Shown piece by piece: positions 6,001 to 31,800 of a stretch of DNA of 59,991 nt. Under the pieces are notes generated by a model that saw nothing but the letters and a program-made list of their open reading frames with translations, was not told the DNA's origin and searched no databases. The first letter of the stretch is position 1. Every line of letters begins with the position of its first letter. The translations under genes were made by a program, and so were the position numbers. Source of the DNA: Magnetococcales bacterium WMHbinv6 (GTDB taxonomy: Bacteria > Pseudomonadota > Magnetococcia > Magnetococcales > Magnetaquicoccaceae); NCBI GenBank assembly GCA_002753135.1, contig PDZV01000024.1:1-59991 (forward strand), read 5' to 3'.

Positions 6001-9000
6001 TGATGCGGGTAATGTCTACACGACGCGCATTTCTGCGGACCTAGGATGCTTTATTCAAAAACAGGATTCGTTTGGGAATGTCCTGTGGAGCAGGGAGGTG
6101 GCCAGCGGAAATCCCTCTAACAGTCTTGGTGTGATACCTTATTCAATAGCTGTGGATAAGGACAGTAATGTCCTCACATCAGGTGGGTTCTATGGCGCTT
6201 TGGATTTTGATCCTGGAGTGGACGAGTTCAGTCTGGTCAGTATAGGTAATTCAGATATTTTTGTTCAGAAATTGGACGCTGAAGGTAGATTGATATGGGC
6301 CAAAAGTGCAGGAGGAGCAGGATGGGAGTTTGCTCGTTCAATTGCCGTGGATACGCTGGGAAATATGCACATCACAGGCTGGTTTGAAGGAACTTCGGAT
6401 TTCGACCCAAGTGCCAGTAATATTACCTTGACAGCTATATATGACCCAGAGGTGTGGAGCAATGATATAAGAGATGTTTTTGTTCTTAAATTGGATGCGA
6501 CCGGGGATTTGTTTGTTCATTCAAACGACGCTCCCGCCCTGGCCATTGCCCTACCCGACCGGACTGCGCTTGTGGGCTATGTCTTTACTTGGCAGATGCC
6601 GGGCAATGCCTTTACCGATTCCAATGGCGACAGTCTGACCTACATCGCCACCCTGGCTGATGGTTCGTCCCTGCCGTCCTGGATCAACTTCGATCCCGTC
6701 ACGCGCACCTTCTCCGGCATTCCAATCAACGGAGATGCAGGCAATATCACAGTCCGGGTGACCGCCAGTGACGGCATCTCAATTGGTTCTGATGAATTCA
6801 TTATCACCGTAGCCAACGTCAATGATGCCCCCTCTGTGGTCAACGCCATCGCTGACCAGAACGTGAAACAGTACTCCGCCCTCAGTTTCCAGATTCCCTC
6901 AGATGCCTTCGCCGACGTGAATGCCGGTGACATCCTGACCTATACGGCTACCCTGGTTGATGGTTCGGCTTTACCAACATGGCTTGCTTTTGATGGAACG
7001 ACACACACTTTCACGGGCACGCCAACAAGTTCTGGCACTGTTTCTGTCCGAGTCACAGCCACTGATCAATCTGGTGCATCAGTTTCGGATGATTTTACGC
7101 TGACTATTGTTGCTGGTTTTAGTTCAACAAATGAGTTCCAAATAGATGCTTCTGGTGGGTTTGATCCACATGCACCTTCTGTAACAACTCTATCGTCCGG
7201 TGAGTATGTAGTTGCTTGGCATGAGAATCAAACAGGCCACTATAATATTTATGGTCAGCGTTTTAGAGAGACTGGCGAGTTAATTGGTGCAGATTTTCAG
7301 ATTGATGCTTCTCCTGATGGCGATAGTTACTTTCCCGTAACAACATCGTTGGTCGATGGAGGGTTCGTTGTAGTTTGGGAATCAAATGGCTACATGAGTG
7401 GGAACGGGTTCGATATCTTCGGACAACGCTATGATGAGAGTGGCAACCAAATCGGGTCAGAGTTCCAGATCAACACGCATGTTGATAGTGATCAACGCCT
7501 GCCAGCAATGGCAGCATTGGCGAATGGTGGGTTTGTCGTTGTGTGGCAATCTGACGGCCAAGATGGTAACGGTTTAGGTGTGTTTGGTCAGCGTTACAAT
7601 GCAGATGGTTCCGTAAGTGGAAATGAGTTTCAAGTCAACACTTATACACTTGGCAATCAACATGGAACTTACTGGAATAATGAGAACATCTCTGTAGCGA
7701 CATTGTCAAACGGCGATTTTGTGGTTGCATGGGGTTCAGAAAACCAGGATGGTAGTGGGTATGGGATATATGGCCAGCGTTTTGATGCCTATGGTGCTCT
7801 AGAAGGGACTGAGTTCAAGATAAATTCTTACACATCAAACAACCAGGAAGCACCAACGGTTATCTCTTTATCTGATAATAGTTTTTTTGTGACTTGGGGT
7901 TCGTGGGATCAGGACGGGAATGAGTACGGAGTTTTTGGGCAAAGATTTGACGGTAATGGTGAAGCTGTTGGTTCGGAGTTTCAGGTTAATACGTACACGA
8001 CGGGTTACCAGTGGGCACCTACTAGCATCCGTCTAGCAGATGGTGGGTTCGTGGTGTCTTGGAATTCATGGGAACAGGATGGCGATCAGTACGGGACGTA
8101 TGGCCAGCGATACGACATGAATGGAGTGGCAGTTGGGAATGAGTTCAGAATTAATTCTACAACGATTGGAGATCAAGGTAGCCCATCACTGACAGCAATG
8201 TCTGATGGAGGATTTGTTGCAATTTGGAACACGACCTATGACGGATTATATGGTAAGAAGTACTATGTTAACCATGTTCCAGTTGTTAAATCACCACTTT
8301 CCGACCGTACAGCAATTGTCGGAGCGGCTTTTGCCTATGAAGTACCTGTAGGCACCTTTGTTGATGCCGATGGAGATACTCTGACCTATTCTGCAACGAT
8401 GTCTGATGGAACTGTCTTGCCGACATGGCTTGTCTTTGATGGAACGACACACACTTTTACAGGAACGCCCACTGGTTCCGGCGATATTTCCGTTCAAGTC
8501 ACAGCCACTGATCATGCTGGGACATCTGTATCGGATGATTTTACGCTGACGATTGAGATGCCTACATCAGCCAATGTCTTCAATCTAGCCACGATCGACG
8601 GTAGCAATGGATTTCGTTTGGATGGGGTGTCAACTGGAGATGCAGGTCATTGGTTAGACAGTCCGGTTAGTTCTGCGGGGGATGTCAACGGAGATGGTTT
8701 TGACGACTTGATCGTTGGGGCTCCTGGAGCCAATTTTAATGCTGGTTCCGTCTACGTAGTATTTGGTCATGCGTCTAATTTTAGTACATGGATCAATTTC
8801 TCTACGCTGGATGGAGGTGCTGGTTTCCGTATAGATGGCGTCGATGGTCAAACAGGAGAATCAGTCAGTTCGGCGGGAGACGTTAATGGTGATGGTTTAG
8901 ATGACGTGCTTATTGGAGCTAGATATAGTGACAATGCAATTGGTTCAAGCTACGTGCTGTTTGGTCAAACATCAGGCTTTAGTTCGGTGATCGACCTTGC

Positions 9001-12000
9001 CAACCTAGATGGTAGCACAGGTTTTCGTTTGTTTGGTGCCACAGGTGACAGATCCGGTGCTTCAGTCAGTTCAGCGGGGGATGTTAACGGAGACGGGTTT
9101 TGTGACCTAATTATTGGAGCTATTGGAACAAATTCGTATGCTGGCTCAGCCTGCGTGGTTTTTGGTCACGCATCAGGTTTTAGTGCAGTGCTTCCTCTTA
9201 GTAGCCTGGATGGTAACACCGGTTTCCGCTTAGATGGCATATTGGCAGACAACCAATTTGGGAGATCGGTCAGTTCGGCAGGAGATATCAACGGAGATGG
9301 TTTTAGTGACTTGATTGTCGGGGCATACAGGTTCAGCCCAAATATAACAGATGCAGGATCCAGTTATGTGGTATTTGGCGGGGCGTCGAGCTTCAATTCA
9401 GCGATCGATTTATCCAGCCTCAATGGCAGTACTGGTTTTCGTCTGGATGGTGCGGCGACGGGTGACCAATCGGGTTTTTCAGTCAGTTCGGCTGGAGATG
9501 TTAATGGTGATGGTTTTGATGACCTGATTATCGGGGCACGATATGCAAATCCAAATGGTCTTGCACAAGCAGGCTCCAGCTACGTGGTATTTGGCAAGGC
9601 GACCGGATTTTATTCAACGATCAGTCTTGCCAACCTGGATGGTCATACCGGATTTCGTTTGGATGGCGTGGTAGCATATGACTGCTCCGGTAAGTTGGTT
9701 AGTTCGGCGGGTGATTTCAACGGGGATGGTTTCAATGACATCATTATTGGAGCATTACGTGCCGATCCGAATAATTTTTCATCTGCAGGTTCCAGTTACA
9801 TGGTATTTGGCAAGGCGTCTGGTTTTAATTCTGTGATTAACCTCGCCAGCCTTGATGGCAGTACCGGATTTCGTTTGGATGGGGTGGAGTCGGGTGACCA
9901 AGCGGGCTTCTCAGTCAGTTCGGCAGGGGATGTCAACGGAGATGGGTTTGCTGACATAATTATTGGAGCGTATGGAGCCAACAGCAGAACTGGTTCTTCT
10001 TACATCATCTTCGGCAGCAACTCCACCAACTCGGTCACCTTCCTTGGCACCAACGGCAACGACACTCTGAATGCAGGCACCTCTGCAGCAGAACGGTTCG
10101 TCTCTGGCGGTGGCAACGATACCATGACCGGTGGTGGCGGTGCCGATGTGTTCCATGGTGGGGTAGGCAACGACACCATCAGTGTTTCCGATTTGACCTT
10201 TCAACTGGTGGATGGTGGCACAGGCACTGATACACTGGCCTTGACCGGATCAGGAATGACTCTGACATTGGCCAACCTCAGAGGAAAAGTCGAGGCCATC
10301 GAAACCATCAACCTCACCGGCAGCGGGGATAATACGTTGGTCTTGACGGCGTTGGATGCGCTGAATTTGTCGGACTCCGGCAATGTCCTGAAGGTGGATG
10401 GGAATGCTGGGGATGTGGTCAACGCGGGAACCGGTTGGACAGATAGGGGTAGCAACGGCGTTTATCATTTCTACACGCAGGGACAGGCGGTGCTGTATGT
10501 AGCGACGTCAATTTCTGTTGTAGCTCCGCAACCTGTTCCTGCCAGTGTTATTGCTCTGTCCAGTCTCAATGGCTCTAACGGGTTCCGGTTGGATGGGGTC
10601 GCTGCGGGGGATATCTCTGGACAGTCAGTTAGTTCAGCAGGAGATGTTAATGGGGATGGTTATGACGATTTGATAGTTGGGGCATCGGATGCCGACCATA
10701 ATGGTTTGGGAAGATCTGGCTCCAGCTATGTAGTGTTTGGCAAAACATCTGGTTTCAATTCCTCGATTGATCTTAGTAGTCTTGATGGAAGCACCGGTTT
10801 TCGTTTGGATGGTGCAGCGGCAGGTGATGAGACAGGATTTTCGAATTCAGCAGGGGATATTAACGGTGATGGTATTGATGACTTAATCATCGGGGCAGTG
10901 GCAGCCAGCGACTGGGCTGGAAGTAGCTATGTGGTCTTTGGCAAATCATCTGGATTCAGCTCATCAGTCAACCTTTCTAGCCTCAATGGTAGTAATGGTT
11001 TTCGTTTGGTTGGAGAGCAGTGGACTAATTGGTCTGGCTATTCAATCTGTTCTGCAGGAGATGTCAACGGTGATGGTTTTGATGATTTGATTGTTGGGGC
11101 AAAAGGGGTAAACAGTTATGCTGGATCCAGTTACGTGGTCTTTGGTAAAGCATCCGGCTTTTCTTCCACGATCTACCTTTCCGGTCTTGATGGCAGTACA
11201 GGTTTTCGTCTGAACGGTGCGGTAGCGCATGACGAATCTGGTTTTTCAGTCAGTTCTGGGGGAGATGTCAACGGGGATGGTTATGCTGATCTGATTGTTG
11301 GGGCATGGGGAGCCGATCCTAACGGTCTGTCATCATCTGGTTCCAGCTATGTTGTGTTTGGTTCTTCGTCTGTGTTTAGTTCTGTGATTGCTCTTTCCGG
11401 TCTTGATGGCAGCACAGGTTTTCGTTTGGACGGCGCATTGGCGGGAGACAATTCTGGTCTCTCAGTCAGTACGGCAGGGGATGTCAATGGTGATGGTTAT
11501 GCTGACCTGATTGTTGGAGCACGGTGGGCTGATCCGAATGGTCTGTCACAATCCGGGTCCAGTTACGTTGTGTTTGGTTCTTCGTCTGTCTTCAATTCCG
11601 TGATCAATCTTTCCAGTCTTGACGGCAGCATCGGTTTTCGCCTTGATGGTGCAATGGCTGATGACAATGCTGGCATTTCAGTCAGTTCAGCAGGAGATGT
11701 CAATGGAGATGGGTTTGATGATTTGATGGTCGGTGCATTCCAGGCAGATCCGAACGGTACAGACTCTGGTTCCATCTATGTCCTTTTTGGTAAATCATCA
11801 GGCTTCACCTCTGCAATGAATCTGTCCAGTCTCAATGGAAGTACAGGTTTCCGCCTGGATGGTACGGCAGCAGGAGATCAAGCAGGTGTTTCCATCCGTT
11901 CGGTTGGCGATGTCAATGGAGATGGATTTGATGATCTGATTGTTGGGGCGCGTCGAGCCGATCCTGGTGGTCTTACCGACGCAGGTTCCAGCTATATCCT

Positions 12001-13534
12001 CTTCGGCAGCAACTCCACAAGTTCAGTCACTTTCCTCGGTACCAGCGGAGCTGACACCTTGACTGGCACTGTCGCCGCAGAAAGTTTCGTCTCCGGCGGT
12101 GGCAACGACACCATGACCGGTGGCGGTGGTGCCGATGTGTTCCACGGCGGCGAAGGCAATGATACTATCACTGTCTCCGACCTGACTTATCAGTTGGTAG
12201 ATGGAGGCATTGGTACCGATACCCTGGCGTTGTCGGGGGCTGGCATGACTCTGACTCTGGCCAATGAACGCGGCAGGATTGAATCGATTGAGACGATTAA
12301 CTTGACAGGTGCTGGAAATAATACGCTGGTACTCACTGATTTGGACCTCTTGAACCTCTCCGATTCCAGCAATACTCTGACCGTTGATGGTGATGCAGGA
12401 GATACTGTTCGTGGAGGAACTGGTTGGACAGATGGCGGGATCAGTGGCGGCTACCACCTTTATTCAAAAGGACAAGCGCAGATCAAAGTGGCCACCACCG
12501 TTACATTCTGCCAGGGTGATCCTTTGGTGCTGGACTTGGATGGCAATGGCATCCGTCTGACTGCCAAAGAGGCCGGTATCCATTTTGATATGAATGGAGA
12601 TGGTATCGCTGATCCCACGGGTTGGATCGGTCATGGGGATGGGTTGTTGGTTTGGGACCGGAACGGCAATGGCAAAATTGATGGTATGCAGGAGGTGATT
12701 TCCGAGCATTCCTCCCCCAATGCCACCTCCAGTCTGGCTGCTCTTGCCACCCTGGACAGCAACCATGACAGTAAAATCGACATCAACGATACAGCCTTTG
12801 CCCATTTGCAGGTATGGGGGGATCAGAAACTCGATGGCGTGGCGGATATTCAGGAGTTGCACAGCTTGGCGCAATTGGGCATCACCAGTCTGGGGCTGTC
12901 ACTGGATCAACACGACCAGTTGACCATCAACGGCAATACGGTGACCGGCTTTGCCACCATAACCTACGCCGACGGCCATCATGGAAATATGGCTGAAGTG
13001 CAACTGGATTTTGTACCGGCTATGCAATCAGAACCTTTCGACGCAACTTCATCACCATCCGCTACGCAAGATGATTCAGCCAGCGTCATGCCTCCCAGTG
13101 GTTTGGCCACGGAACTGCTTAATTGGGATGGTGTTGCCCTGCAACGTGAGGGAGATACAGTCAAGTTGGTTGGCAACGACTCCTCCCTGGATTTGACCAA
13201 TCTGCTGGCCAACAAAGCGTTGGCCAGCACCGATCATGTGGATATGCGGGGTGCCGGGAACAACGCCATGAACGTTCACGATTTCCTGGATTTCTCCGGC
13301 AGTGACCATCCTCTGGTGATCTCTGGAGATGCCGGGGATGTGGTCAATGTCCAGCACGCGATCAATACCGTTCTGGGTGCCAATACCACCGTTGTCGTGG
13401 ATGGCGTCAGTCATGCCACAGACTCGACAGGCCACACGATCATCGGAGCTGACAGCTTTGTCGTGCATCAAACGGTGGATGGTCTGCATACCGTGTTGGT
13501 GGATGACCATGTTGTGGTAAACTTCCTGCGATGA
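2..13534 (+). CDS. Giant multi-propeller secreted/surface protein, 5' end cut by window
   Basis: The frame is open to the left edge, so the true start and any signal are outside the window; 4,510 codons are visible. Domains in order: a partial Ig-like module; seven VCBS/FG-GAP repeats (about 170-1160); a CADG module (1575-1860); seven more VCBS-type repeats (1950-2950); CADG (3290-3580); seven repeats ending in a GxYGQRY motif (3600-4770); CADG (4785-5075); seven SBBP-type repeats with a DFDPG motif (5090-6520); two CADG modules (6525-7110); seven GQRY repeats (7120-8275); CADG (8280-8555); seven integrin-like FG-GAP repeats (8565-10010); an RTX-like patch with GNDT/GGxGxD motifs (10020-10540); seven FG-GAP repeats (10545-12005); a second RTX-like patch (12020-12510); then EF-hand loops such as DMNGDGIAD and DRNGNGKIDG. 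No membrane anchor is visible at the C-terminus. RTX-like calcium motifs suggest type I secretion (inference). A surface adhesin or matrix protein is likely; ligand unknown. Confidence 0.85.
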   Translation, partial: ANGVDYATIGFQVSDGIDWSTSSSTINIEVAAVNDAPVLNTSTGLFSAQVSYSVGIHASSVAIGDVNKDGVQDLVVANYGTWPSSNDTASVLLGTGNGTFQTQTTYQVGGNPDPVLLSDFNEDGFLDMVVANDGSTVSVLLGQGNGTFQTRSSISVGSHPRAAAVGDLNGDGHADIVTVNRDSRTVSILLGNGNGTFQAQSSYSVGNWAHAVVIGDWNEDGIPDLAVVNTQDNNVSLLLGNGNGSFQGQTRVAVGSGPTAMTTSDLNHDGHSDLIVTNGNSNNLSILLGLWNGQFQSQIVYAVGQNPNDVVAKDFNGDDIVDLAVSNYGSNSVTILSGQSNGTFQTGQTYSSDKPNAISVGDFNNDGLPDLAVANDSNTVSILLAENFVELSDINEDTITNGFLVSDLVGSSIRDIDGGTTGIAVRTVDNVHGQWQFTLDNGVQWQNLNADSDQNSTLLAVSAGTRIRFIPGADWNGTTGLTFRAWDQSDAHISGEQVDVSVVGGASAYSDAFMEAKLRVAPVNDAPVLNTSIPDRTAIVGAAIACEVPAGTFVDADGDTLTYSATLADGTALPTWLSFDPNTHMFTGLPSSGETGILAVQVTATDSVGHSVHDSFALTIAGQQYSPVPFSSLGWSNKTATTLSSVWTKTAAVLPADMNNDGMVDLVIATADPLTGSTFDSDHVYLMMNHGDGNFSTSEVLNFPRVFTFAIADIDNDSHKDIVVSAYGEWASGLGKVGWFKNDGAGVPSFEEHVLSTSEGAFSLAVGDLFNDGNQDIIASYHFNSMFLFEQTSPGVFASQQVLESTSARGLAIGDLDGDHYNDVVRSGWWDYKINWLDIDGSLPVQSNTTITVTSTYGSGELDRPHALTIGDIEGDGDQDVVMIVDHAGQYLLINNGDQTFNAHILDKYKITADTQWWNGNYPVHLIDVDQDGIKDVIRGGVWFKVNSDYSVTQNVVDATAYAGQIVDLDNNGSLDFVISGANGIVVRYDFMRPHIAINEDSSYHFTLSDFPFTDRDTGSQLMAVRITGLPEGGELRLGGQLVAINQEIVASEISGLLFAPFQDVNGHSGVQFQVFDGSSWSASSNTIDIEVAAVNDAPVLNRSIPDRTAIIGAAFTYEVPAGTFVDADGDTLTYSATMSDGDALPTWLAFEGTTHTFTGTPTGSGDVSVRVTATDHAGASVSDSFDIGITTLNPEVAGGEFQIGTYSNVWNPAISSTSMSDGGVVVVWHTGDSSETGIVGQRYDVHGTVVGSTFQINTYETGAQLNPEVIALSDGGVVVAWESNGQDGQGFGIYGQRYSASMVPVGAEFRINTYTDNDQRIPAMAVLSDGGFVAVWNSYGQDGNDWGVYGQRFNASGTKIGLEFQVNTYTVGDQSGEHWAAHEPSNVVGLSDGGFVVTWQSLNQDGVGNGTYGAHGIYGQRYGVDGTRIGSEFRINTYTADDQMSPSMVSLSDGGFLVTWSSYEQDGSYCGVYGQRYDENSSAVGDEFQINTYTDGYQWVSAQTALSDGGFVVTWHSWEQDGSEYGVYGQQYDRNGIEVGSEFRVNTFTNGSQGTPTMTSMPDGGFMVAWASLPLGVYGQRFDANGVPFGHHEPVLATPIPDRTAIVGAAFAYEVPVGTFVDADGDTLTYSATMFDGAALPTWITFDPSTYTFSGIPDNGDLGSITVRVTASDGTSTDSDDFIIAVVNNDAPIGGSNFPVRIGGPYPDYGHAIAVDGAGNIYTAGHFRGTIDFDPGPGVFNLTTEHYDGGVWSGYHEAIFIQKLDAVGNFVWAKGLSGGTSMMEDHVVITVDQSNNLYVTAGLADVNGDGFYPLDNPGVGMIRIEGAGDGPNRDIVAMKFDTDGNVLWTSILDGTGDNAPSAIATDNAGHLSITGSFWGTMDFDPGPAVHSVSNGVERQSMFIQQLDASTGVLTWVKTMGDIEASYIRSSGITLDGANNVYVIGEYSGPGVVDFDPGNGVATLDATYSSFLLKMDSSGNFVWVQDTGSTYGGVLSVATDDAGNVYTTRISADLGCFIQKQDSFGNVLWSREVASGNPSNSLGVIPYSIAVDKDSNVLTSGGFYGALDFDPGVDEFSLVSIGNSDIFVQKLDAEGRLIWAKSAGGAGWEFARSIAVDTLGNMHITGWFEGTSDFDPSASNITLTAIYDPEVWSNDIRDVFVLKLDATGDLFVHSNDAPALAIALPDRTALVGYVFTWQMPGNAFTDSNGDSLTYIATLADGSSLPSWINFDPVTRTFSGIPINGDAGNITVRVTASDGISIGSDEFIITVANVNDAPSVVNAIADQNVKQYSALSFQIPSDAFADVNAGDILTYTATLVDGSALPTWLAFDGTTHTFTGTPTSSGTVSVRVTATDQSGASVSDDFTLTIVAGFSSTNEFQIDASGGFDPHAPSVTTLSSGEYVVAWHENQTGHYNIYGQRFRETGELIGADFQIDASPDGDSYFPVTTSLVDGGFVVVWESNGYMSGNGFDIFGQRYDESGNQIGSEFQINTHVDSDQRLPAMAALANGGFVVVWQSDGQDGNGLGVFGQRYNADGSVSGNEFQVNTYTLGNQHGTYWNNENISVATLSNGDFVVAWGSENQDGSGYGIYGQRFDAYGALEGTEFKINSYTSNNQEAPTVISLSDNSFFVTWGSWDQDGNEYGVFGQRFDGNGEAVGSEFQVNTYTTGYQWAPTSIRLADGGFVVSWNSWEQDGDQYGTYGQRYDMNGVAVGNEFRINSTTIGDQGSPSLTAMSDGGFVAIWNTTYDGLYGKKYYVNHVPVVKSPLSDRTAIVGAAFAYEVPVGTFVDADGDTLTYSATMSDGTVLPTWLVFDGTTHTFTGTPTGSGDISVQVTATDHAGTSVSDDFTLTIEMPTSANVFNLATIDGSNGFRLDGVSTGDAGHWLDSPVSSAGDVNGDGFDDLIVGAPGANFNAGSVYVVFGHASNFSTWINFSTLDGGAGFRIDGVDGQTGESVSSAGDVNGDGLDDVLIGARYSDNAIGSSYVLFGQTSGFSSVIDLANLDGSTGFRLFGATGDRSGASVSSAGDVNGDGFCDLIIGAIGTNSYAGSACVVFGHASGFSAVLPLSSLDGNTGFRLDGILADNQFGRSVSSAGDINGDGFSDLIVGAYRFSPNITDAGSSYVVFGGASSFNSAIDLSSLNGSTGFRLDGAATGDQSGFSVSSAGDVNGDGFDDLIIGARYANPNGLAQAGSSYVVFGKATGFYSTISLANLDGHTGFRLDGVVAYDCSGKLVSSAGDFNGDGFNDIIIGALRADPNNFSSAGSSYMVFGKASGFNSVINLASLDGSTGFRLDGVESGDQAGFSVSSAGDVNGDGFADIIIGAYGANSRTGSSYIIFGSNSTNSVTFLGTNGNDTLNAGTSAAERFVSGGGNDTMTGGGGADVFHGGVGNDTISVSDLTFQLVDGGTGTDTLALTGSGMTLTLANLRGKVEAIETINLTGSGDNTLVLTALDALNLSDSGNVLKVDGNAGDVVNAGTGWTDRGSNGVYHFYTQGQAVLYVATSISVVAPQPVPASVIALSSLNGSNGFRLDGVAAGDISGQSVSSAGDVNGDGYDDLIVGASDADHNGLGRSGSSYVVFGKTSGFNSSIDLSSLDGSTGFRLDGAAAGDETGFSNSAGDINGDGIDDLIIGAVAASDWAGSSYVVFGKSSGFSSSVNLSSLNGSNGFRLVGEQWTNWSGYSICSAGDVNGDGFDDLIVGAKGVNSYAGSSYVVFGKASGFSSTIYLSGLDGSTGFRLNGAVAHDESGFSVSSGGDVNGDGYADLIVGAWGADPNGLSSSGSSYVVFGSSSVFSSVIALSGLDGSTGFRLDGALAGDNSGLSVSTAGDVNGDGYADLIVGARWADPNGLSQSGSSYVVFGSSSVFNSVINLSSLDGSIGFRLDGAMADDNAGISVSSAGDVNGDGFDDLMVGAFQADPNGTDSGSIYVLFGKSSGFTSAMNLSSLNGSTGFRLDGTAAGDQAGVSIRSVGDVNGDGFDDLIVGARRADPGGLTDAGSSYILFGSNSTSSVTFLGTSGADTLTGTVAAESFVSGGGNDTMTGGGGADVFHGGEGNDTITVSDLTYQLVDGGIGTDTLALSGAGMTLTLANERGRIESIETINLTGAGNNTLVLTDLDLLNLSDSSNTLTVDGDAGDTVRGGTGWTDGGISGGYHLYSKGQAQIKVATTVTFCQGDPLVLDLDGNGIRLTAKEAGIHFDMNGDGIADPTGWIGHGDGLLVWDRNGNGKIDGMQEVISEHSSPNATSSLAALATLDSNHDSKIDINDTAFAHLQVWGDQKLDGVADIQELHSLAQLGITSLGLSLDQHDQLTINGNTVTGFATITYADGHHGNMAEVQLDFVPAMQSEPFDATSSPSATQDDSASVMPPSGLATELLNWDGVALQREGDTVKLVGNDSSLDLTNLLANKALASTDHVDMRGAGNNAMNVHDFLDFSGSDHPLVISGDAGDVVNVQHAINTVLGANTTVVVDGVSHATDSTGHTIIGADSFVVHQTVDGLHTVLVDDHVVVNFLR

Positions 13535-13590: not shown

Positions 13591-13632
13591 AAGGAGATGG
13601 CTATGTCGGCAGGAAGGAGATGGCTATGTCGG
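13591..13632 (+). repeat. Tandem duplication of a ribosome-binding site and start codon
   Basis: A 19-base block containing AAGGAG and two ATG codons occurs at 13591-13609 and again at 13614-13632, an offset of 23 bases. The offset is not a multiple of three, so the first copy starts a different frame. The second copy serves the downstream Rpn gene: GGAG at 13616-13619 is well spaced from the ATG at 13626 but touches the ATG at 13620. Confidence 0.8.
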
Positions 13633-14603
13633 AATCCGACAACCAGAGCCAGAAAAACGAATTTGACACTCCGTGGAAGGAGATTCTGCGGACGCATTTT
13701 GAGGACTTTCTGGCTTTTTTCCTGCCAGAAGCGCATGACGGGATAGAGTGGAGGAGGGGGTACGAATTTCTCGACAAGGAACTGGCCAGCATCGCACGTG
13801 AAGCTGAGATCGGCGATCGGCGCATGGACAAGCTGGTGAAGGTCTATCAGAAAGACGGTGTTGAGTATTGGGTGGTCATTCACGTCGAAATCCAGGGTGG
13901 CAGAGAGGCCAACTACCCGGAGCGGATGTTCACCTACAACTACCGGACCTATGACATCAAGAAGAGGCCGGTAGTCAGTTTGGCTGTCCTGGCAGATGAT
14001 GATATCAACTGGAGGCCGACTGAATACGGTTACGAATTGTGGGGCACGCGGGTGGGTTTCCGGTTCACGGCGATCAAGCTGTTGGACTATTCGGAAGCCG
14101 ACTTGGAGCGGTCGAGCAACCCGTTTGCAGTTGTGGTGCAGGCGCATTTACAGGCCAAGAAGACCAAAGGCAAGACGGAGGATCGGTACCAAGCGAAATG
14201 GAAACTGATCCGAAGCTTGTATCAGCGAGGGTATGACCGCCAGAAGGTGATTGATCTTTTCCGATTTATCGACTGGGTGTTGCACCTTCCCAGGGAAGCT
14301 GATGAGCGGTTGATGGCAGAAATTGTTGCATTGGAGGAGGACAAAAAAATGCCGTACATTTCGAGTGTGGAGCGGATTGGGGAAGAGAGAGGTGTCCTGA
14401 AGGGCATCGAAATCGGAGAGCAGAGAGGCGAGAAAAAGGGTAAAGCAGACACCCTGACCCGCCAACTGCAACGCCGCTTCGGTGACTTGCCACCCTGGGC
14501 CAGCCAGAAAATAGCCGATGCCGATCTGGCTACTTTGGAAAATTGGAGTCTCCGAATCCTGGACGCGCCGACGTTGGAGAGCGTGTTGGCCGACCCGTCG
14601 TAA
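13626..14603 (+). CDS. Rpn-family recombination-promoting nuclease/putative transposase (PD-(D/E)XK)
   Basis: This 325-residue protein resembles the Rpn/YhgA-like family, whose PD-(D/E)XK nuclease domain promotes RecA-independent recombination in the characterised E. coli members. A likely catalytic strand is visible as HVEIQG (near residue 92), preceded by acidic residues in DRRMDKLVKV. The C-terminal part has a Glu/Gly/Lys-rich linker (near 265) and a DUF4351-like end (GKADTLTRQLQRRFG). The same tail recurs in the second Rpn gene at 15140-16057. I chose the ATG at 13626 because its Shine-Dalgarno spacing is normal; the ATG six bases upstream abuts the site. The gene stands alone, followed 310 bases later by a terminator-like hairpin. 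Whether it mobilises DNA here is unknown. Confidence 0.8.
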   Translation: MSESDNQSQKNEFDTPWKEILRTHFEDFLAFFLPEAHDGIEWRRGYEFLDKELASIAREAEIGDRRMDKLVKVYQKDGVEYWVVIHVEIQGGREANYPERMFTYNYRTYDIKKRPVVSLAVLADDDINWRPTEYGYELWGTRVGFRFTAIKLLDYSEADLERSSNPFAVVVQAHLQAKKTKGKTEDRYQAKWKLIRSLYQRGYDRQKVIDLFRFIDWVLHLPREADERLMAEIVALEEDKKMPYISSVERIGEERGVLKGIEIGEQRGEKKGKADTLTRQLQRRFGDLPPWASQKIADADLATLENWSLRILDAPTLESVLADPS

Positions 14604-15139
14604 AGGTGGTGGAGAATCCGCATTCTCATTTTTATATGCAAAATCTGCAATAGAGAATTCCGTGATTGCATCTTGCCAACGAAGCGGGAGTCGGAAGCGA
14701 GTCCGAAGGTGTGTCATGAAAAGTCATTGAGATTTCGACGGCTGCGGAGAAGTCATTGAATATCAAATTGATTTTAATCGGCTCATTACTTGGCTAACCA
14801 AGATGGCGTCGAAACGTTCTCCTGCTGCGCTGCAGCAAAGTGGTGGAGAAAAAGTTCGACGCTCGGAAACTTGCTCCACCATATAAAATTCAGCAGAAAT
14901 TCTCTGTTTTCAAGCCACTCCCAAAAGTGGCTTTTTTTACGCAAAAAATCCAAATGTTTTCAACGGTTACCGAAGAACCCAAAAACCCTTATATTATAAA
15001 ATTTAAGGTGAGCTGCCGAGTGTGAGTGAGAAACCGGAAGACATCTTTCTGAACCAGTTTGTGGTGGTAAAAGTGCTTTGCAAAAGGTAGACTGTTACCG
15101 GTATGCGCTGGTGACTTCCACTGATTGGGTAGATCTGCC
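14604..15139. other. Non-coding gap between the two Rpn genes
   Basis: No convincing gene is present in this stretch of about 540 bases. It holds a 10-base direct repeat (AAGTCATTGA at 14721-14730 and 14750-14759), a terminator-like hairpin (14913-14938) and an AT-rich tract near 14993 (TTATATTATAAA) that could be part of a promoter for the next gene. I could not fit a good -35 box to it. Confidence 0.6.
14913..14938 (+). terminator. Rho-independent terminator
   Basis: A perfect 7-bp stem (AGCCACT at 14913-14919 with AGTGGCT at 14926-14932) has a 6-base loop and runs directly into seven T residues (14932-14938). This is the classic form of an intrinsic terminator for rightward transcription, but it lies 310 bases beyond the stop of the Rpn gene, so it would end a long 3' tail or a separate transcript. 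Confidence 0.7.
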
Positions 15140-16057
15140 ATGAAATTTATCGACCCACGTATTGATTTTGCCTTCAAGAAAATTTTTGGCAGTGAGAGTG
15201 CCAAGGATCTCCTGGTCAGTTTTCTGGAAAGCCTGCTCGGCCTGGAAGGCGACCGGCGGATTGCCGAACTGACAATCCTGGATCCCTTTCTGGTACCGAA
15301 AATTCGCGAGTTGAAATATTCCATCCTGGATGTCCGTTGCCGCGATCATCGGGGCGTCTCCTACATCGTCGAAATGCAGATACAGAGGGTGGCCGCCTTT
15401 CTGAAACGGATCCAGTACAACGCCGCCAAGGCGTATGTCAGCCAGGTCGAGCGAGGAGAGGAGTATCCCAAGTTGAACCAGGTGATCGCCATTACGATCA
15501 CGGATTTCATCTTGTTCAACGGCTTTAACCATTGCGTGTCACGCCACGAGTCACGGGAGATCATCACCGGACAATCTTATCTGCAGGAAATTCTGCACTT
15601 TTTTGTCGAACTTCCCAAATTCCAAAAATCTCTGGATGAGCTGGATGGTATCCTGGATCAATGGATTTACTTCATCAAGTATGCCGGTTCGTTGCAGGAA
15701 GTGCCGGCAAAACTGAATGCGGAGCCATTTCGTCATGCGTTCGAGATGGCGATGGTGGCCAATATGTCAGCGGAGGAACTGGAATTGTATGAGAAGGCGG
15801 GCATAGCCATTGCGGATGCGCGGGGTGCGGTTGAGTTGGCTCGAAAGGAGGGAGAGCAGAAAGGGCGGCAGGAGGGTGAACAACTTGGTGAGCAAAAAGG
15901 TAAAGCCGACACGCTGCTGCGCCTTCTCCAACGACGTTTCGGTCAGGTCTCGGGTCCGATCAAAGAGAAGGTAACGGAAGCCAGCCTGGAACAGCTCGAA
16001 GTCTGGACCGATCGCATCCTGGATGCCAAGTCGATTGATGACGTTTTCATGACTTGA
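15140..16057 (+). CDS. Rpn-family nuclease/putative transposase (PDDEXK_2 type)
   Basis: This 305-residue protein starts with the typical opening of PDDEXK_2 family proteins, MKFIDPRIDFAFKKIFG. The nuclease core is visible as LDVRCRDHRG followed by YIVEMQIQ (residues about 64-83), giving the D...ExQ arrangement. A Glu/Gly/Gln-rich linker near residue 240 leads to a DUF4351-like tail, GKADTLLRLLQRRFG. The tail and linker closely match those of the first Rpn protein although the N-terminal domains differ, so the pair may share a partner or oligomerisation mode. The ATG at 15140 is preferred over an upstream TTG (15125) because it begins exactly at the conserved family N-terminus. Its function in this genome is not shown. 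Confidence 0.8.
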   Translation: MKFIDPRIDFAFKKIFGSESAKDLLVSFLESLLGLEGDRRIAELTILDPFLVPKIRELKYSILDVRCRDHRGVSYIVEMQIQRVAAFLKRIQYNAAKAYVSQVERGEEYPKLNQVIAITITDFILFNGFNHCVSRHESREIITGQSYLQEILHFFVELPKFQKSLDELDGILDQWIYFIKYAGSLQEVPAKLNAEPFRHAFEMAMVANMSAEELELYEKAGIAIADARGAVELARKEGEQKGRQEGEQLGEQKGKADTLLRLLQRRFGQVSGPIKEKVTEASLEQLEVWTDRILDAKSIDDVFMT

Positions 16058-16566: not shown

Positions 16567-16954
16567 CCAATAGGTTAAAATTACATGTTATTGTGTTTTT
16601 TGTCTGTACTGTGTACTCGGTGGTTTTGCTTTTGCCAATCTGGCGTTATCTTGCCATTGTAGATTGATTTTCAGTGTGTTACTGTTCTGCAGTTGGCCTG
16701 ACGGATGGTGCGGGAGTGTGGTTTGAAATTGCGCAACGGTTGTGGCTGTTTGGGCGTTGGTCGTGGCTGTGTTGCGCCAGGGTGTGGGTTATGACGCCTG
16801 CGCTGACAAGTCAAGAGTATGTGGCAATTGCGCGTTGTTGGCGGTCAGTGGCGTTGAGTGCTGTTTTGGCTGGCGGGAAGTCCACTGCCGGTTGAGCTTT
16901 GAAAGCGACTGTGGATATGGGCAGAAAGGGTCGTGGAGGATACAGAACACGCCA
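16567..16954. other. Non-coding leader of the SNF2 helicase gene
   Basis: This stretch of about 390 bases is T/G-rich and holds no gene I can support. The helicase frame is open back to 16742, but that extension looks unlike protein (many Cys and Trp, no family match), so I treat it as leader. Confidence 0.5.
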
Positions 16955-19633
16955 ATGAGAAATTTAAGCCTGCGTCTGACGCCCCAAGGAAAACTTGTTG
17001 TTGAACACGATGACGAGACGCCCTCTTTGGACGACAAAGTTGCTGATAGGGTGGCTGCCGCCTTTGCCAAAGGTGTCGGCTACGGATTGATGCAATTAGG
17101 GGCTTGTGAGGTGGGGAACGCCTTGCCCCCGGTGTTTGGATGGTGGCGTGATTTTGCTGCCCGCTACATGGTTGGGCTCTGCCTGCGCACGTCGCATGAC
17201 ATTCCCGATATTCCGCCACCAGCAACAGGCGATCTTTCGTTCCTGGTCCTGACAGCTCCCATGATGTCTGGTGGAGAGTATTTGAACGCCGATGTATTGC
17301 TGGGGTTATGGTCCGGGTTGGGCACAGCATTGACATCCTCTTTTGCCGAAGCCGGTATGGACTTGCAAAATTTTCTGCAGGGATTGAACCCGGTTTGGAA
17401 CTTGGTTGGGAGGGTGCATTTCAACTTGGCGGAAAATCGGCGCGACTCGGAACACCCCTTTGCCTTCATGGCCACCTACACGATGCGCCTTTCGTCGGAT
17501 GCCAAGGTTCAGCATGCACCGCTTGGCCAAGCTTTGCGCGAATATGCCGGGGCGGCGAACCGGGACAAACTGCTATCGTTGTTGTTGCCGGTGCAGAAAG
17601 CTGCGGAACGTTGCACGTGGCTGAAGACGATGGTCGATGCCGGGGAGATATTCCACCCTTTGCGTTGGGCTCCAGGCGATGCGGCGGGGTTTCTTGCCAG
17701 CGTGCCAGATCTTGAGAGTGCTGGAATCGTGGTGCGCATGCCTGCCACTTGGCGTTCCAATCGACCGGCACGACCACTGGTCACACTCTCTGTGGGTAAA
17801 AAGGCCCCTTCAGAAGTAGGGCTTTCCGGTCTGCTCGATTTTCAAATGGATGTCATGCTGGATGGCGAACCGCTCAACGATGATGAGATTGCCTCTTTGC
17901 TTGCTGGCACCGAAACATTGGTTTTGCTTCGTGGTCAGTGGGTAGAGATTGACCGTGAGCGATTGGAGCAGACCTTGCGGCAGTTAGAAGAGGCTGAGGC
18001 ATTGGCTCAGGAAGGTGGTTTGACCTTTGCGGAAGCCATGCGCATGCTGGCTGGTGCCCCTCTGGGTGCAGATGACAGGGGCATTACGTCCAGTGAATGG
18101 TCGAAGGTCGTTGCAGGTCCTTGGCTGGCTGACACGCTGAAGAGTTTGCGTAATCCTGATGGTCATGATGTTGACCCTGGTTCTTCACTGCGTGGCACCC
18201 TTCGACCGTACCAGAAAGCGGGTGTAAAGTGGTTGCACCTGTTGAGCAGTTTGGGACTCGGTGCCTGTCTTGCGGATGACATGGGGCTTGGCAAGACGGT
18301 ACAGGTTTTGTCTTTGTTGCTGGTACAGGCAAGGGAAGGGAACAATAGACAACCGAACCTGCTGGTAGTGCCAACCTCATTGTTGGCCAACTGGGTGGCG
18401 GAAATTGAGCGCTTTGCTCCCAGCCTGCAAATTCTCACAGTACACCCTTCGGCGTTAAGTGCCGACCAGATAAAATCTCTGACAGTAGACCAATTTTTAG
18501 GATTCGATCTCGTCATCACCAGTTATGGCAGCCTGTTGCGGTTATCGGTATTGGAAGATACCGACTGGCGGTTGCTCATCCTTGATGAGGCCCAGGCCAT
18601 CAAGAATCCGAATGCCAAGCAAACCAAGGCCGCCAAGGCGCTGAAAACGAGGGCGCGCATCGCTTTGACTGGTACGCCTGTGGAGAACCATCTGGGTGAT
18701 TTATGGTCAATTTTCGATTTTATCAATCCGGGACTTCTTGGAAATTTCAAACAATTCAATGGTTACACAAAAAAATTGGTTGGCCGAACACATAACCCTT
18801 ATGGCCCGTTGCGAGAACTGGTCGGGCCCTACATCTTGCGTCGCATGAAGACGGACAGGTCAATTATTTCCGACCTGCCAGATAAAACGGAGATCAAGGC
18901 ATACTGTTCCTTGGGACGGAAACAGGCGGCGCTTTATGGCCAAGCGGTAGAAAATTTAGCCAATGAACTGGAGGAGAGCGAAGGGATTCAGCGCAAGGGG
19001 TTGATTCTGTCCACCATGATGAGGCTGAAACAAATCTGCAACCACCCGTCCCACTGGTTGAATGATCATGACTGGTCTGAGGAAGAGAGCGGAAAATTTA
19101 TGCGTTTGCGGGAGATTGCCGAGGTGGTGTCGTCACGTCAAGAAAAAATGCTGCTTTTCACGCAGTTCCGGGAAACGACCGGACCACTGGCATCGTTTCT
19201 CAGCAGGATTTTTGGCCGCAGCGGGTTGGTTTTGCACGGCGATACGGCGGTCAAGAAACGCAAAGAGTTGGTGCAAGCCTTTCAGGAAGATGAGACGGTA
19301 CCTTTCTTTGTGCTGTCACTCAAAGCAGGCGGATCTGGTCTGAATCTGACGGCAGCGTCTCACGTCGTGCATTTCGACCGCTGGTGGAATCCTGCGGTGG
19401 AAAATCAAGCGACTGATCGTGCGTTTCGTATTGGGCAGAAAAAAAATGTGTTGGTGCATAAGTTTGTTTGCAAGGGTACGCTCGAAGAGAAAATAGACAC
19501 CCTGCTCGAAGCCAAGAAGAGTTTGACCAAGGATTTACTGGGTGATTCTGGCGAGATCAACGTAACCGAGATGACGAATGACGAACTGCTGCGCTTGGTG
19601 GCTTTTGACCTGAATGCGGTTATGGAGGAGTAA
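16955..19633 (+). CDS. SNF2-family DEAD/DEAH-box helicase with SNF2-associated N-terminal domain
   Basis: The 892-residue protein is a superfamily 2 ATP-dependent DNA translocase. The N-terminal half contains the bacterial SNF2-associated region (residues about 225-400, with LRWAPGDAAGFL and LLRGQWVEIDRERLE). The motor follows: motif I DDMGLGKT with Lys447, motif II DEAQ at residues 544-547, LTGTPVENHLGDLWS (motif III), then the C-terminal lobe with LLFTQFRE, SLKAGGSGLNLTAA and the arginine-finger motif QATDRAFRIGQ. The ATG at 16955 begins the family-like sequence; GGAGG at 16935-16939 is 15 bases upstream, rather far. It is separated by 5 bases from a SWIM zinc-finger gene, a pairing seen in many bacteria, so the two proteins probably act together on DNA. 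Chromatin-remodelling-like, repair or defence roles are all possible. Confidence 0.9.
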   Translation: MRNLSLRLTPQGKLVVEHDDETPSLDDKVADRVAAAFAKGVGYGLMQLGACEVGNALPPVFGWWRDFAARYMVGLCLRTSHDIPDIPPPATGDLSFLVLTAPMMSGGEYLNADVLLGLWSGLGTALTSSFAEAGMDLQNFLQGLNPVWNLVGRVHFNLAENRRDSEHPFAFMATYTMRLSSDAKVQHAPLGQALREYAGAANRDKLLSLLLPVQKAAERCTWLKTMVDAGEIFHPLRWAPGDAAGFLASVPDLESAGIVVRMPATWRSNRPARPLVTLSVGKKAPSEVGLSGLLDFQMDVMLDGEPLNDDEIASLLAGTETLVLLRGQWVEIDRERLEQTLRQLEEAEALAQEGGLTFAEAMRMLAGAPLGADDRGITSSEWSKVVAGPWLADTLKSLRNPDGHDVDPGSSLRGTLRPYQKAGVKWLHLLSSLGLGACLADDMGLGKTVQVLSLLLVQAREGNNRQPNLLVVPTSLLANWVAEIERFAPSLQILTVHPSALSADQIKSLTVDQFLGFDLVITSYGSLLRLSVLEDTDWRLLILDEAQAIKNPNAKQTKAAKALKTRARIALTGTPVENHLGDLWSIFDFINPGLLGNFKQFNGYTKKLVGRTHNPYGPLRELVGPYILRRMKTDRSIISDLPDKTEIKAYCSLGRKQAALYGQAVENLANELEESEGIQRKGLILSTMMRLKQICNHPSHWLNDHDWSEEESGKFMRLREIAEVVSSRQEKMLLFTQFRETTGPLASFLSRIFGRSGLVLHGDTAVKKRKELVQAFQEDETVPFFVLSLKAGGSGLNLTAASHVVHFDRWWNPAVENQATDRAFRIGQKKNVLVHKFVCKGTLEEKIDTLLEAKKSLTKDLLGDSGEINVTEMTNDELLRLVAFDLNAVMEE

Positions 19634-19638
19634 GAGGC

Positions 19639-20856
19639 ATGTCACGCTACGGAGGATGGGCACCCTATGTTCCGGTGGCTGAACGGCGCAGACAGGCGGC
19701 CCGTCAAGTGGAAAAAATGCGCAAGAAGGGGCAACTGGTTGCGCCGGTCGTGATCCAGGGGCAGGCCATTGCCACGACTTTTTGGGGGAAGGCCTGGTGC
19801 AAGAACCTGGAAAGCTATCAGGATTATGAAAATCGCCTGCCACGTGGCAGAACCTACGTGCGCAACGGTTCTGTCCTGGATCTTCAGATTCAGTCCAAAG
19901 AGATCCGGGCAATCGTCAGTGGATCATCAATCTATCAGATAAAGATCAGTATCTCGGCTGTCCCGGATGGAGTGTGGCAGAATATCTGCGGGGATTGTTC
20001 TGGCGGCATTGATTCCCTGGTTGAGCTATTACAGGGCCGTTTCAATAAAGGGGTTATGGATCGTTTGTGTCGCCAGGATGGCGGACTGTTTCCATCGCCG
20101 TCTGAGATCAAATTTTCCTGTAGTTGTCCTGATTATGCGTACATGTGCAAACACGTGGCAGCCGTGCTGTACGGGGTTGGTGCCCGTCTGGACGAGCAGC
20201 CGGAACTTCTGTTTTTGTTGCGGGCGGTGGACCAAAATGATTTGATTGCCCAGGTAGATACCTCTTTGCCGATGAGTATGCAGCACCCTTCCGAGGAAAA
20301 ATTGCTTGCAACCGAGGATATTGCCGATCTGTTTGGGCTGGATATATTGCATGAAGATGCCACGGCAAAACCGGTTATTGCACAGGAAGCCGTGGTGAGA
20401 ACGGTTGGGAAACGGGGTGGTGCTGCAGCACAAAAGCCTGTACAAGAGGTGATCAAGGCATCGGTTGCGGCTGTCAATAAACCCAAGGTGACTGTTGCAG
20501 AAAAGGCCGCGTCTGCAGTCGGCAAAGCCTCCGCTGCGAAGATGGTCACCAAAGTAAGAACCAAACAGGGCGGTTCTCGACCAGACGTTATGCCGCCTGT
20601 GTCTGCGCAGGATAAGCAGCAGGGAAAACAGGAGGAACTCTACCAGAAGATGCTGTCATTGGTAAAATCTGCTGGGTTCGATACTGTGGAAGAGTTTATC
20701 GCCACGCAAGGCAAGCAGTCAGGGAATGAGATGCTGACGAAATACCGGAACCCTCACAACGCGCAGCAAAGTTGGTCTGGCAAAGGCCGCAAGCCCAATT
20801 GGGTGGTGGCATATTTGGATGCTGGTGGCCGGATGGAGGAGTTGGAGGATGGCTGA
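19639..20856 (+). CDS. SWIM zinc-finger protein with H-NS-type C-terminal DNA-binding domain
   Basis: This 405-residue protein begins 5 bases after the helicase stop and is probably translated with it. The SWIM motif CxCx(n)CxH is intact: Cys161, Cys163, Cys170 and His172 in CSCPDYAYMCKH. A low-complexity Ala/Val/Lys linker (about 245-315) resembles histone H1-like tails. The last 38 residues (about 368-405) match the H-NS DNA-binding domain: KYRNPHNAQQSWSGKGRKP followed by NWVVAYLDAGG, compared with the TWSGRGRKPxW core of H-NS proteins. The SWIM domain is expected to bind zinc and DNA or protein. The fused H-NS module suggests AT-rich minor-groove targeting of the partner helicase, which is inference from domains only. 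Confidence 0.85.
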   Translation: MSRYGGWAPYVPVAERRRQAARQVEKMRKKGQLVAPVVIQGQAIATTFWGKAWCKNLESYQDYENRLPRGRTYVRNGSVLDLQIQSKEIRAIVSGSSIYQIKISISAVPDGVWQNICGDCSGGIDSLVELLQGRFNKGVMDRLCRQDGGLFPSPSEIKFSCSCPDYAYMCKHVAAVLYGVGARLDEQPELLFLLRAVDQNDLIAQVDTSLPMSMQHPSEEKLLATEDIADLFGLDILHEDATAKPVIAQEAVVRTVGKRGGAAAQKPVQEVIKASVAAVNKPKVTVAEKAASAVGKASAAKMVTKVRTKQGGSRPDVMPPVSAQDKQQGKQEELYQKMLSLVKSAGFDTVEEFIATQGKQSGNEMLTKYRNPHNAQQSWSGKGRKPNWVVAYLDAGGRMEELEDG

Positions 20857-28650: not shown

Positions 28651-28895
28651 GTTCTTCCCTGCCGCAGCCACATCACTGCCAACACATCCCGGCAATCCCA
28701 TGCCTGACTGCCATATTTTTAGACGCCCCGGTTGCTGCCGGTTTCCAGCCCTCTGTTTCACCTTTGCAACAAACCAGACCAAGGAAAACTTGCCTTTCAC
28801 ATCGAGGTCACGTTAAACTGTTTATCTTGTTGTTATGTAACTTTTAATAACATAGACGATCCCGAACTGCTTTCCGGCTGTTTTGTGAGGTGCGC
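28651..28895. other. Intergenic region before the octapeptide-repeat gene
   Basis: About 245 bases without a gene. It contains a TGTTAT/ATAACA inverted repeat (28831-28836 and 28847-28852) in an AT-rich patch that may include the promoter of the next gene. I could not assign -35 and -10 boxes with confidence. Confidence 0.4.
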
Positions 28896-31800
28896 GTGAG
28901 TACCCCTACCTATACCAGTAAACAAATGAGCCAGTTGACCACAGCGCAACTGGCTGCGCTGACCTCCGAAGAGTGGGCTGCCTTGAGCCATGAGCAGCTG
29001 AACGGTTTGACCTCTCGCGGCTTGATGATTTTGACCGAGGAGCAGCTCAACGGCTTTTCTGCCGAGCAGTTGGCGGGCTTTGCCCATACGCAGTGGTCCG
29101 GGCTGACGGCGGCGCAGTTGGGTTCGCTGGCCGATAATCAGCTCGACGGGGTGGGTTCGCTGCAGCTCAATCGCTGGGCGTCCACGCAGTGGAACGGATT
29201 GACGGCGGAACAGTTGAGCAATCTGGCCATGACCCAGCTCGACGGGCTGCGTTCCGCCCAGATCAGCAGCCTGGCGGTGACCCAGTGGCAGGGGTTGCGT
29301 GCAGAGCAACTGGCCTCGCTGGCGGTGACCCAATGGAACGGGGTCTCTTCCCGGCAGTTGGCCGCTTTAAGCAACAGCCAGTTGGATGGTTTGAGTTCGG
29401 CCCAGTTGGCCAGCATGGCCAATACACAACTGGACGGTTTGAGCGCCGCCCAATTGGCCTCGCTGGAGGATAGCCAGCTGGCCGGGTTGCAGGCTGGCCA
29501 TTGGAAGGCGATGAGTACCACCCAGTTGCAGGGGTTGACCTCCGGGCAGATCGATTCGTTGTCCACCCTGCAGTTGCAGGGGTTGAGTTCGGCGCAACTG
29601 GGGGCCTGGTCCGATGAACAATGGGACGGGTTGAGCGCGCAACAGCTGGCCTCTTTCTCCAAATTTCAGTTGGCGGGTGTGACTTCAGCCCAGTTGAGCG
29701 CTTTTGCCGATACCCAGTGGCAGGGGTTGAGCAGCGCCCAGTTGGCCACGCTGAACAGCAAGCAGTTGGCGGGATTGAACGCGACCCATCTGCAAAACTT
29801 GACCACCAGCCAGATTGCCGGTTTGAGCGCCGCGCAGCTGGCTGCCATCAGCGTGACGGCCATGGCTGGCTGGAGTGTGGAGCAGTTGCCGACTTTGACC
29901 TTGACACAGATCGGCAGCTTAAGTCGCAACCAGTTTGCTGCGTTGACCGCGACGCAAGGCAACGCCTTGAGTTCCACCCAGATCAGCTGGCTTTCCACGA
30001 CCCAGATGGCCGGTTGGACCACCGCCATGCTGCAGGGTCTGAGCAGCGAACAGCTCAAAGGGTTGCGTGCCGTGCAGATTGTTGCCTTGAGCAGTACCCA
30101 GCTGCAGGGGTTGCCGGATACCGCGTTGTCCGGGTTGAGCGCCACACAGATCAAGGCGCTGAGCCCTACCCAGGTTGCCTTTTTGACCACCACCCAGCTG
30201 GCGGCGCTGCCTGTCGAGCGGATGAGTCTCTTGACCAGTCAGCAGTTGTCCGCCCTGACCCCTACCCGCATCGGGTTGTTGGCGGCGGCACAGGTTGCCG
30301 GGTTGACCTCCAGCCAGCTTAACGTCTTGAGTGTGCGGCAGGCGGCCATGTTGACCGCTTCGGCCATTGCTGCTTTGTCCAACGAGGCGCTGCCCGGCTT
30401 GACCGACAATCAGTTGGCTGTCTGGGACAGCACACAGATTCAAGCGTTGCAGAGCGGGCAAATACCGATTTTGAGCGGTTCGCAATGGCAGGGGTTGGGC
30501 AGCAGTCAGATCGGGGCGCTGAGCATCACCCAGATCGGGGCGTTGACTTCGACGCAAATTCGCAATTTGACGACCACCCAGATCAAAGGGTTGCAGGTGG
30601 AGCAGTTTATCGGTCTGACCCCGCAACAGTTGGGGGCTTTTTCCTCTGGGCAACTGGCTGCACTGACCACAACACAAATGACCGGTTGGCATTCCGACGA
30701 TCTGGCGACGTTGACCACCCGGCAGATGCAGGCCTTTTCCGGGGCACAACTGGCCGCCTTGACCATCGAGCAGGCAGTGGGCTTGACGGCAGAACAGTTG
30801 CGTTCGCTGGGCACGGTGCAATTGCAGCTTTTTACCAGCGAACAGGTCAGCCACTGGTCGGTGCAGCAGTTGGCAGGATTGAGCAGCGAACAGATCGGAT
30901 CGTTGACGGCAGGGCAGCTCTCGGCGTTGCAGAGCGAACAGATTGCCGCATTGAGTGTCACCCAGAGCCGGGGCTTGACGGCAATCCGCATCAAAGAGTT
31001 GACCAGCAGCCAATTGGCCGGTTTAACCACCACCTCGCTGGCGACTCTGTTGACCAGCCAGATTGCGGCGTTGACCGCGACACAGCTCTCTTTGTTGAGC
31101 CTGGAGCAGGTGGGAGCGCTCAGTTCACAGCAGATTCGCACCTTGTCGGCGCAACAGATGGCCGGCTGGAGCGAAAGCCAGGTGGCGGCGATCACGGCCA
31201 GCCAGATCGGCGGCTTGACCACCACCCAGTTGCAGCGTTTGTCCACAACGCAGTTAAGCGGCTTGTCGGCCGCCCAGCTGGGTTGGTTGGGCAGTCGGCA
31301 GATCAGTGTTTTTTCTTCCGAGCTGTTTGCGGCGATGAGCAGTGATCAGTTGCAAGGGTTGAGCGTAGAGCAGGTGCGTCTCCTGAGTGTACAGCAGTTG
31401 CGGGGGCTGGCGGCAGAGCAGCTGGCCTCTTTGAGCGAAAACCAGATCAGTGTCCTGAACACAACCCAGATGCAATCCCTGAACAGCACCCAGTTGCAGG
31501 GGTTGACCGAAATGCAGATGGCCGCTTTGCAGGCCTTGCAGGTACGGGCTTTGACCAGCCAACAGATGCGCAGTTTAAACATCACCCAACTGGCGGCCAT
31601 CACCAGCACGGCCATCGCCCAGATGTCGGTGACGCAGGTGCGAGGTTTGACCACCACGCAGGTGGCAGCCTTGACCGTGACCCAGATCGGAGGTTTGACC
31701 CGCCGCCAGCTGGCCTCGTTGAACTTATCGCAGGTGACGGCTCTGAGTGGTGAACAGCTGGCAGCGTTGCGCCCGGATCAGGAGAAAATATTGACGGCGG

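Follow-up and report, generated by a model that had tools for sequence, protein, structure and literature searches.

The SNF2-SWIM gene pair and its H-NS tail

Contig PDZV01000024.1 of Magnetococcales bacterium WMHbinv6 was analysed over its 59,991 nucleotides (the window, our contig C76 of a 3.84-Mb genome with Magnetococcales as nearest relatives). Two genes lie head to tail with 5 bp between them, an intact SNF2-family ATPase and a SWIM zinc-finger protein ending in an H-NS DNA-binding domain, which bears out the partnership proposed in the initial annotation. The genes and the parts of the SWIM protein are:

16955..19633, + strand: SNF2-family ATPase (DUF3670, SNF2-rel and Helicase_C), 892 aa; from Pfam, a solved-structure search and motifs
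19639..20856, + strand: SWIM zinc-finger protein with C-terminal H-NS domain, 405 aa; from Pfam and relatives
20119..20154, + strand: SWIM site CxCx6CxH (CSCPDYAYMCKH), residues 161-172; four ligands invariant in 64 aligned relatives
20254..20604, + strand: fast-evolving, A/V/K-rich linker of low model confidence, residues 206-322; pLDDT mostly <60, dN/dS 0.31-0.42
20605..20739, + strand: helical remnant of the H-NS part preceding the DNA-binding domain, residues 323-367; from the model and the alignment with stand-alone Magnetococcales H-NS
20740..20847, + strand: H-NS DNA-binding domain, residues 368-403, with the AT-hook-like KGR in WSGKGRKPNW; from Pfam, the model and structure matches

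The SNF2 gene starts with ATG at 16955 and stops at 19631-19633; an alternative longer frame begins with GTG at 16742. Its product matched DUF3670 (1.7e-30), SNF2-rel (2.9e-63) and Helicase_C (3.2e-19) in Pfam, and the ATPase motifs I, II, III, V and VI are all intact. The nearest solved relative of the ATPase was SsoRad54 (1z63, 5.2e-131), followed by 8qy7 (3.8e-75), an entry labelled DEAD/DEAH box helicase which we take to be the Zorya helicase ZorD.

The SWIM protein is composed of a core (residues 1-205), the linker (about 206-322) and the H-NS tail (323-405). The core holds the CxCx6CxH site, correctly described as intact in the initial annotation and covered by a match to SWIM PF04434 (6e-6, residues 160-178). 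Searches among solved and viral relatives for the fold of the core gave none at E<=0.001; ZSWIM8, a weak match (E 1.1), is a lead only. The linker had been described as Lys/Ala/Val-rich, and its residues 240-322 indeed contain 17 A, 15 V and 11 K among 83 positions. The C-terminal SWSGKGRKPNW, likewise ascribed to H-NS beforehand, occupies residues 378-388 inside a match to H-NS PF00816 (1.3e-12, 47.7 bits at a cut-off of 25.6, residues 368-403). A profile built from the tail and stand-alone H-NS proteins retrieved the solved DNA-binding domains of 2l92 (an H-NS family protein), Ler, StpA and H-NS. In the AlphaFold model of the full protein the tail blocks reached a pLDDT of 88-95 with a weaker joint between them (67-76), while a model of the tail only had a mean pLDDT of 75.9; the best Foldseek match of the latter was Salmonella H-NS 2l93 (TM 0.60 by target, E 1.9), which was superposed by VIA with a Z of 5.5 and 1.8 A over 43 residues. 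The predicted fold is that of an H-NS DNA-binding domain. Because this domain is small the structural scores are modest, and the H-NS identity of the tail is carried by the sequence evidence rather than by these scores. The tail is a true H-NS DNA-binding domain, probably of the AT-hook-like kind. Its loop reads KGR in the window copy and RGR in the other four H-NS-tailed members known to us. PMC4466236 describes Q/RGR as the AT-hook-like motif that H-NS inserts into the AT-rich minor groove, with VGR in Ler, and states that H-NS loops (Q/RGR) and AT-hooks (R-G-R-P) read this groove alike.

Homology to stand-alone Magnetococcales H-NS is limited to the last ~80 residues of the tail (325-403), and the identity to the stand-alone H-NS of the same genome (C15) is 51%. 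The N-terminal oligomerisation domain of H-NS, which makes the first dimer contact, is absent from the tail in the alignment with stand-alone H-NS. The window copy and L007 still have a recognisable helical stretch ahead of the DNA-binding domain; in L005, L006 and L008 this stretch is eroded. Since this stretch is eroded in three of five members and the N-terminal part is gone, the constant element is the DNA-binding domain and not self-assembly. Among three close members the core had a dN/dS of 0.07-0.08 and the H-NS block one of 0.05-0.17, as against 0.31-0.42 for the linker; thus the block is conserved in place while the linker drifts, an observation on few independent lineages.

Pairing and interchangeable tails among SWIM relatives

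SNF2-SWIM pairs occur across many bacterial phyla and on plasmids. We collected 90 SWIM relatives, and in 84 of them an SNF2 gene lies directly upstream on the same strand; among the remaining six, two have SNF2 farther upstream, three are near a contig end and one (L062) is without SNF2. SWIM and SNF2 are fused in a single frame at L149 (a plasmid of Aeromonas salmonicida), L150 (Wolbachia phage WO) and L151 (genome G098). The SNF2 protein differs little with the tail kind of its SWIM partner: identity to the window copy was 74-75% for partners of H-NS-tailed and 73% for partners of other-tailed Magnetococcales proteins.

After exclusion of three relatives with cut C-termini, the tails of 87 proteins were classified: 51 basic, 14 without a tail, 13 with an Xre-type helix-turn-helix, five H-NS, two AT-hook and two other. 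For this count repeats of one locus were skipped (L004, L034, L035, L079, L083-L088, L129-L136), four short or split hits (L032, L081, L116) and L033, below threshold, were dropped, and near-copies such as L124-L126 were kept. Tails of the set had seeded the helix-turn-helix profile, and Pfam served as independent check, assigning HTH_3 to 11, H-NS to five, AT_hook to one and the H1-like HC2 to one member of a set of 64. None of 218 control C-termini of neighbour proteins bore an H-NS, helix-turn-helix or AT-hook tail, the zero for helix-turn-helix being biased by the seeding. The mean net charge of the 73 tails present was +11.2 versus +1.07 in the 218 neighbour-protein C-termini (Mann-Whitney 1.2e-21, with related rows that are non-independent). 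With only five H-NS tails among 87, H-NS is not the general trait; a DNA-binding or basic tail is. Mapped on a tree of the cores, the tail labels required at least 15 changes versus 36.7 after shuffling: tails cluster by lineage, yet were repeatedly replaced. The H-NS-tailed group amounts to one change (support 71). As H-NS loops and AT-hooks read the AT-rich minor groove alike, two tail kinds would converge on AT-rich DNA; helix-turn-helix tails need not have an AT-rich target. The presence of alternative tails at the same place suggests an interchangeable anchor for the motor, and the repeated swap of the SWIM end between H-NS, AT-hook, helix-turn-helix and basic forms suggests that the job of this subunit is to hold DNA for it.

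Some Magnetococcales SWIM proteins (L009:1030-2100, L034, L032) have another basic segment at the C-terminus, for which Pfam gave no match at cut-off. In six Opitutales loci (L060, L066, L067, L072, L073, L074) the chromosomal neighbourhood of the pair is conserved; five of their SWIM proteins are tail-less and that of L060 is helix-turn-helix-tailed; tail loss may be linked to a settled chromosomal life.

Distribution, transfer and genomic surroundings

The H-NS tail was found in five of 48 Magnetococcales genomes (G000, G003, G015, G016, G046). SWIM cores of more than 60% identity were present in seven of the 48 and distant ones in three, and the SNF2 partner was found in the same ten genomes. 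The tail was kept in close homologues. It is more than chance, because the same tail stands on the SWIM proteins of four other genomes and on none of the 218 controls; an assembly artefact or chance fusion was rejected, the fusion being common to five genomes. The cassettes of G016 (family f1) and G046 (family f13) share 91.5% DNA identity over 4366 bp, a stretch that starts some 360 bp ahead of SNF2 and reaches slightly past the SWIM gene; the flanks are unrelated. The cassette is self-contained, moves horizontally and has crossed family borders. In genus g2 (G007-G017) nine of 11 genomes are without a detected H-NS domain, while all seven genomes of the sister genus g1 have one; the two g2 exceptions, both ~76% complete, are G016, with H-NS only as SWIM tail, and G015, with the tail and one weak hit. 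The tail came with the cassette and can be present in genomes without any other detected H-NS, an arrangement that speaks for an anchor rather than for a partner of H-NS. A tree of the H-NS domains, which are short, is compatible with one capture as well as with two; in it the tails group with the H-NS of genus g1 and not with that of f13, with weak support. Second cassette copies were observed in two genomes that also carry an intact H-NS-tailed one: in G046 (C333, L133/L079) the SNF2 and SWIM frames are split, in G015 (C332, L136/L033) the SWIM gene is truncated, and both have a different C-terminal tail.

Beyond Magnetococcales, close SWIM relatives occurred in one of 398 genomes sampled from the phylum and, in the family to which this genome belongs, in 15 of 341 genomes, none of them with an H-NS tail. 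The tail was also not found in 27 loci (L102-L128), 13 plasmid loci and the non-Magnetococcales genome-contig loci, the latter scanned with six exact peptide patterns, so that misses are likely. SWIM relatives were detected on 121 of 72,556 plasmid records, 54 typed as conjugative and 23 as mobilizable. Fourteen of the 121 records were opened, 13 with close relatives and one with a fusion; SNF2 sequence lies upstream in all 13 close loci, truncated in L091 and split in L096. Phage and viral collections contributed one of 50,697 phage records and ten IMG/VR contigs. In seven of these ten (L119-L122, L124-L126) a large serine recombinase is located convergently and directly downstream of the SWIM gene, and clustering of 554 neighbour proteins placed it in nine loci, mostly from IMG/VR. 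This link is biased, since IMG/VR selects contigs with integrases. The clustering showed common chromosomal neighbours only for the Opitutales loci.

No constant third partner emerged: in a Pfam scan of 131 of 183 candidate neighbour proteins (Opitutales loci and some others left out) families occurred in at most two members each, and no recurrent defence neighbour was among these 131, a result without matched control. Of the five H-NS-tailed loci only that of G046 is in a defence island: to one side lie an integrase, AlpA and a toxin-antitoxin-like pair (RelE/HTH), to the other a CARF-RtcR regulator, HsdR and HsdM. The G015 copy has an IS4/5-type transposase and a PDDEXK_2 protein nearby, the G003 copy a ShlB-type transporter and a catalase; for the G016 copy the single neighbour tested gave nothing known. 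No defence gene was among the neighbours tested at G003 and G016. In the window the pair is flanked by DUF4351/PDDEXK_2 proteins, an FkbM methyltransferase, an NMT1-type protein and a histidine kinase. Among 27 other window proteins PADLOC matched only mad3, SoFic and PDC-S24 at 1e-15, and no complete system.

The flanking frames at 13620-14603 and 15125-16057 encode two related DUF4351 proteins, the second a PDDEXK_2 (Rpn-like) nuclease-transposase, and a relative adjoins the cassette in G015 (L130:6125-7087). Two large frames lay outside the PADLOC scan: that at 11-13534 (4507 aa) has, by eye, repeated FG-GAP/cadherin-like modules and is probably a giant surface or secreted protein, and that at 28890-32828 encodes a 1312-aa protein with ten ALTTAQ repeats (PF20080).

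Proposed mechanism, alternatives and known systems

We consider it fairly probable that the pair acts as a tethered translocase, in which the SNF2 protein pumps double-stranded DNA and the SWIM protein is its accessory, DNA-tethering subunit. The SWIM core (residues 1-205) would couple the two, probably by docking on the motor, and the long flexible linker would end in a replaceable tether that binds DNA. The H-NS tail would anchor the complex in the AT-rich minor groove and is likely to target it to AT-rich DNA. While the tether grips the DNA, the pumping ATPase would remodel protein-DNA assemblies or strip them off, with a preference for DNA that is AT-rich and often mobile. Several observations weigh against this mechanism. 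Fourteen of 87 relatives are tail-less, thus the tether is non-essential to the family. The label basic describes composition and may include tails of other function, e.g., the helical tail of L009. The KGR of the window copy in place of Q/RGR could weaken the AT preference. In distant pairs the dN/dS of the H-NS block was 0.12-0.39, slightly under that of the linker where both were measurable, and the conservation test covers few independent lineages, as near-copies make up three of the five H-NS-tailed proteins.

The initial annotation had directed the helicase to AT-rich or foreign DNA. With a real AT-hook-like H-NS domain and SNF2 directly upstream in 84 of 90 relatives, a motor directed to AT-rich DNA is the natural inference, and this part of the proposal stood. 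Its extension to a xenogeneic silencing or defence remodeller, which would be sent to AT-rich invading DNA and repress or restrict it, was not supported. The H-NS domain with its AT-hook-like loop, the G046 copy in a defence island and the resemblance of the ATPase domain to ZorD and DpdE are in its favour, but the resemblance lies in the shared ATPase domain, the H-NS oligomerisation part is missing, only one of five loci is in a defence island, the 131 neighbours hold no recurring defence partner, those tested at G003 and G016 no defence gene, and the three PADLOC families matched in the window form no complete system. We regard such a function as quite unlikely.

A factor of mobile elements, by which the pair frees AT-rich DNA of the element from host H-NS or other proteins (counter-silencing) or aids maintenance or transfer, would agree with the 121 plasmid records (54 conjugative), the ten viral contigs, seven of them with the adjacent serine recombinase, and the 91.5% identical cassette between different flanks in two families. 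SWIM-associated SNF2 ATPases are described as widespread in mobile systems in PMC5512222. However, the recombinase link is biased by the choice of integrase contigs in IMG/VR, most copies in Opitutales are tail-less and lie in conserved chromosomal surroundings, and in genus g2, with nine of 11 genomes lacking an H-NS domain, H-NS is not a needed target; this explanation appears unlikely. The tail might also be a passive, nonspecific booster of DNA affinity or a relic without targeting value, as most relatives (51 of 87) are merely basic-tailed and KGR replaces Q/RGR in the window copy. The H-NS block and loop are kept in five of five members while the linker diverges, and a passive tail is very improbable. 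The tethered translocase may be extended to a doubtful but wider idea: SNF2-SWIM pairs as ATP-driven nucleoid remodellers of bacteria with plug-in tethers, a counterpart of eukaryotic chromatin remodelling, of which the Magnetococcales form would move or evict H-NS-type filaments on AT-rich DNA.

The H-NS form gives a handle on the family, since the DNA that it prefers can be predicted and its tail can be deleted or exchanged. If the proposed mechanism is true, the pair would be a simple system in which to test how the bacterial nucleoid is remodelled by an ATP-driven motor, and an example of an H-NS domain employed outside self-assembling silencers. SWIM domain-associated SNF2 ATPases are already named in PMC5512222, thus the novelty lies in the tail and not in the pair. 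In a literature search mostly outside subscription journals neither a published account of an SNF2-SWIM pair with an H-NS fusion nor a published function for SNF2-SWIM pairs was found.

Among known systems, the closest likeness is to the bacterial and archaeal SsoRad54-type SNF2 proteins with a SWIM partner: the ATPase matches 1z63, and an intact-motif SNF2 protein with DUF3670 and an adjoining CxCxnCxH SWIM protein are both present; here, however, the SWIM partner ends in an H-NS DNA-binding domain beyond a long linker. The tail shares the C-terminal DNA-binding domain of H-NS nucleoid proteins and xenogeneic silencers by sequence, loop and predicted fold, but it lacks the N-terminal dimerisation part, is fused to a SWIM core and is paired with an ATPase. 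The helicases ZorD of Zorya, DpdE of Dpd and DrmD of DISARM have a related ATPase domain; the protein described here has another N-terminal part and a SWIM partner, and no other subunits of these systems were found by PADLOC among the 27 window proteins. A known defence helicase was ruled out on these grounds, the similarity lying in the ATPase domain and the partners missing. Some eukaryotic SNF2 remodellers bear AT-hooks. They would work alike in combining an ATPase with a tether for the AT-rich minor groove, and two of the bacterial SWIM relatives are AT-hooked, but in the bacterial pair the tether is placed on the partner protein and not on the ATPase.

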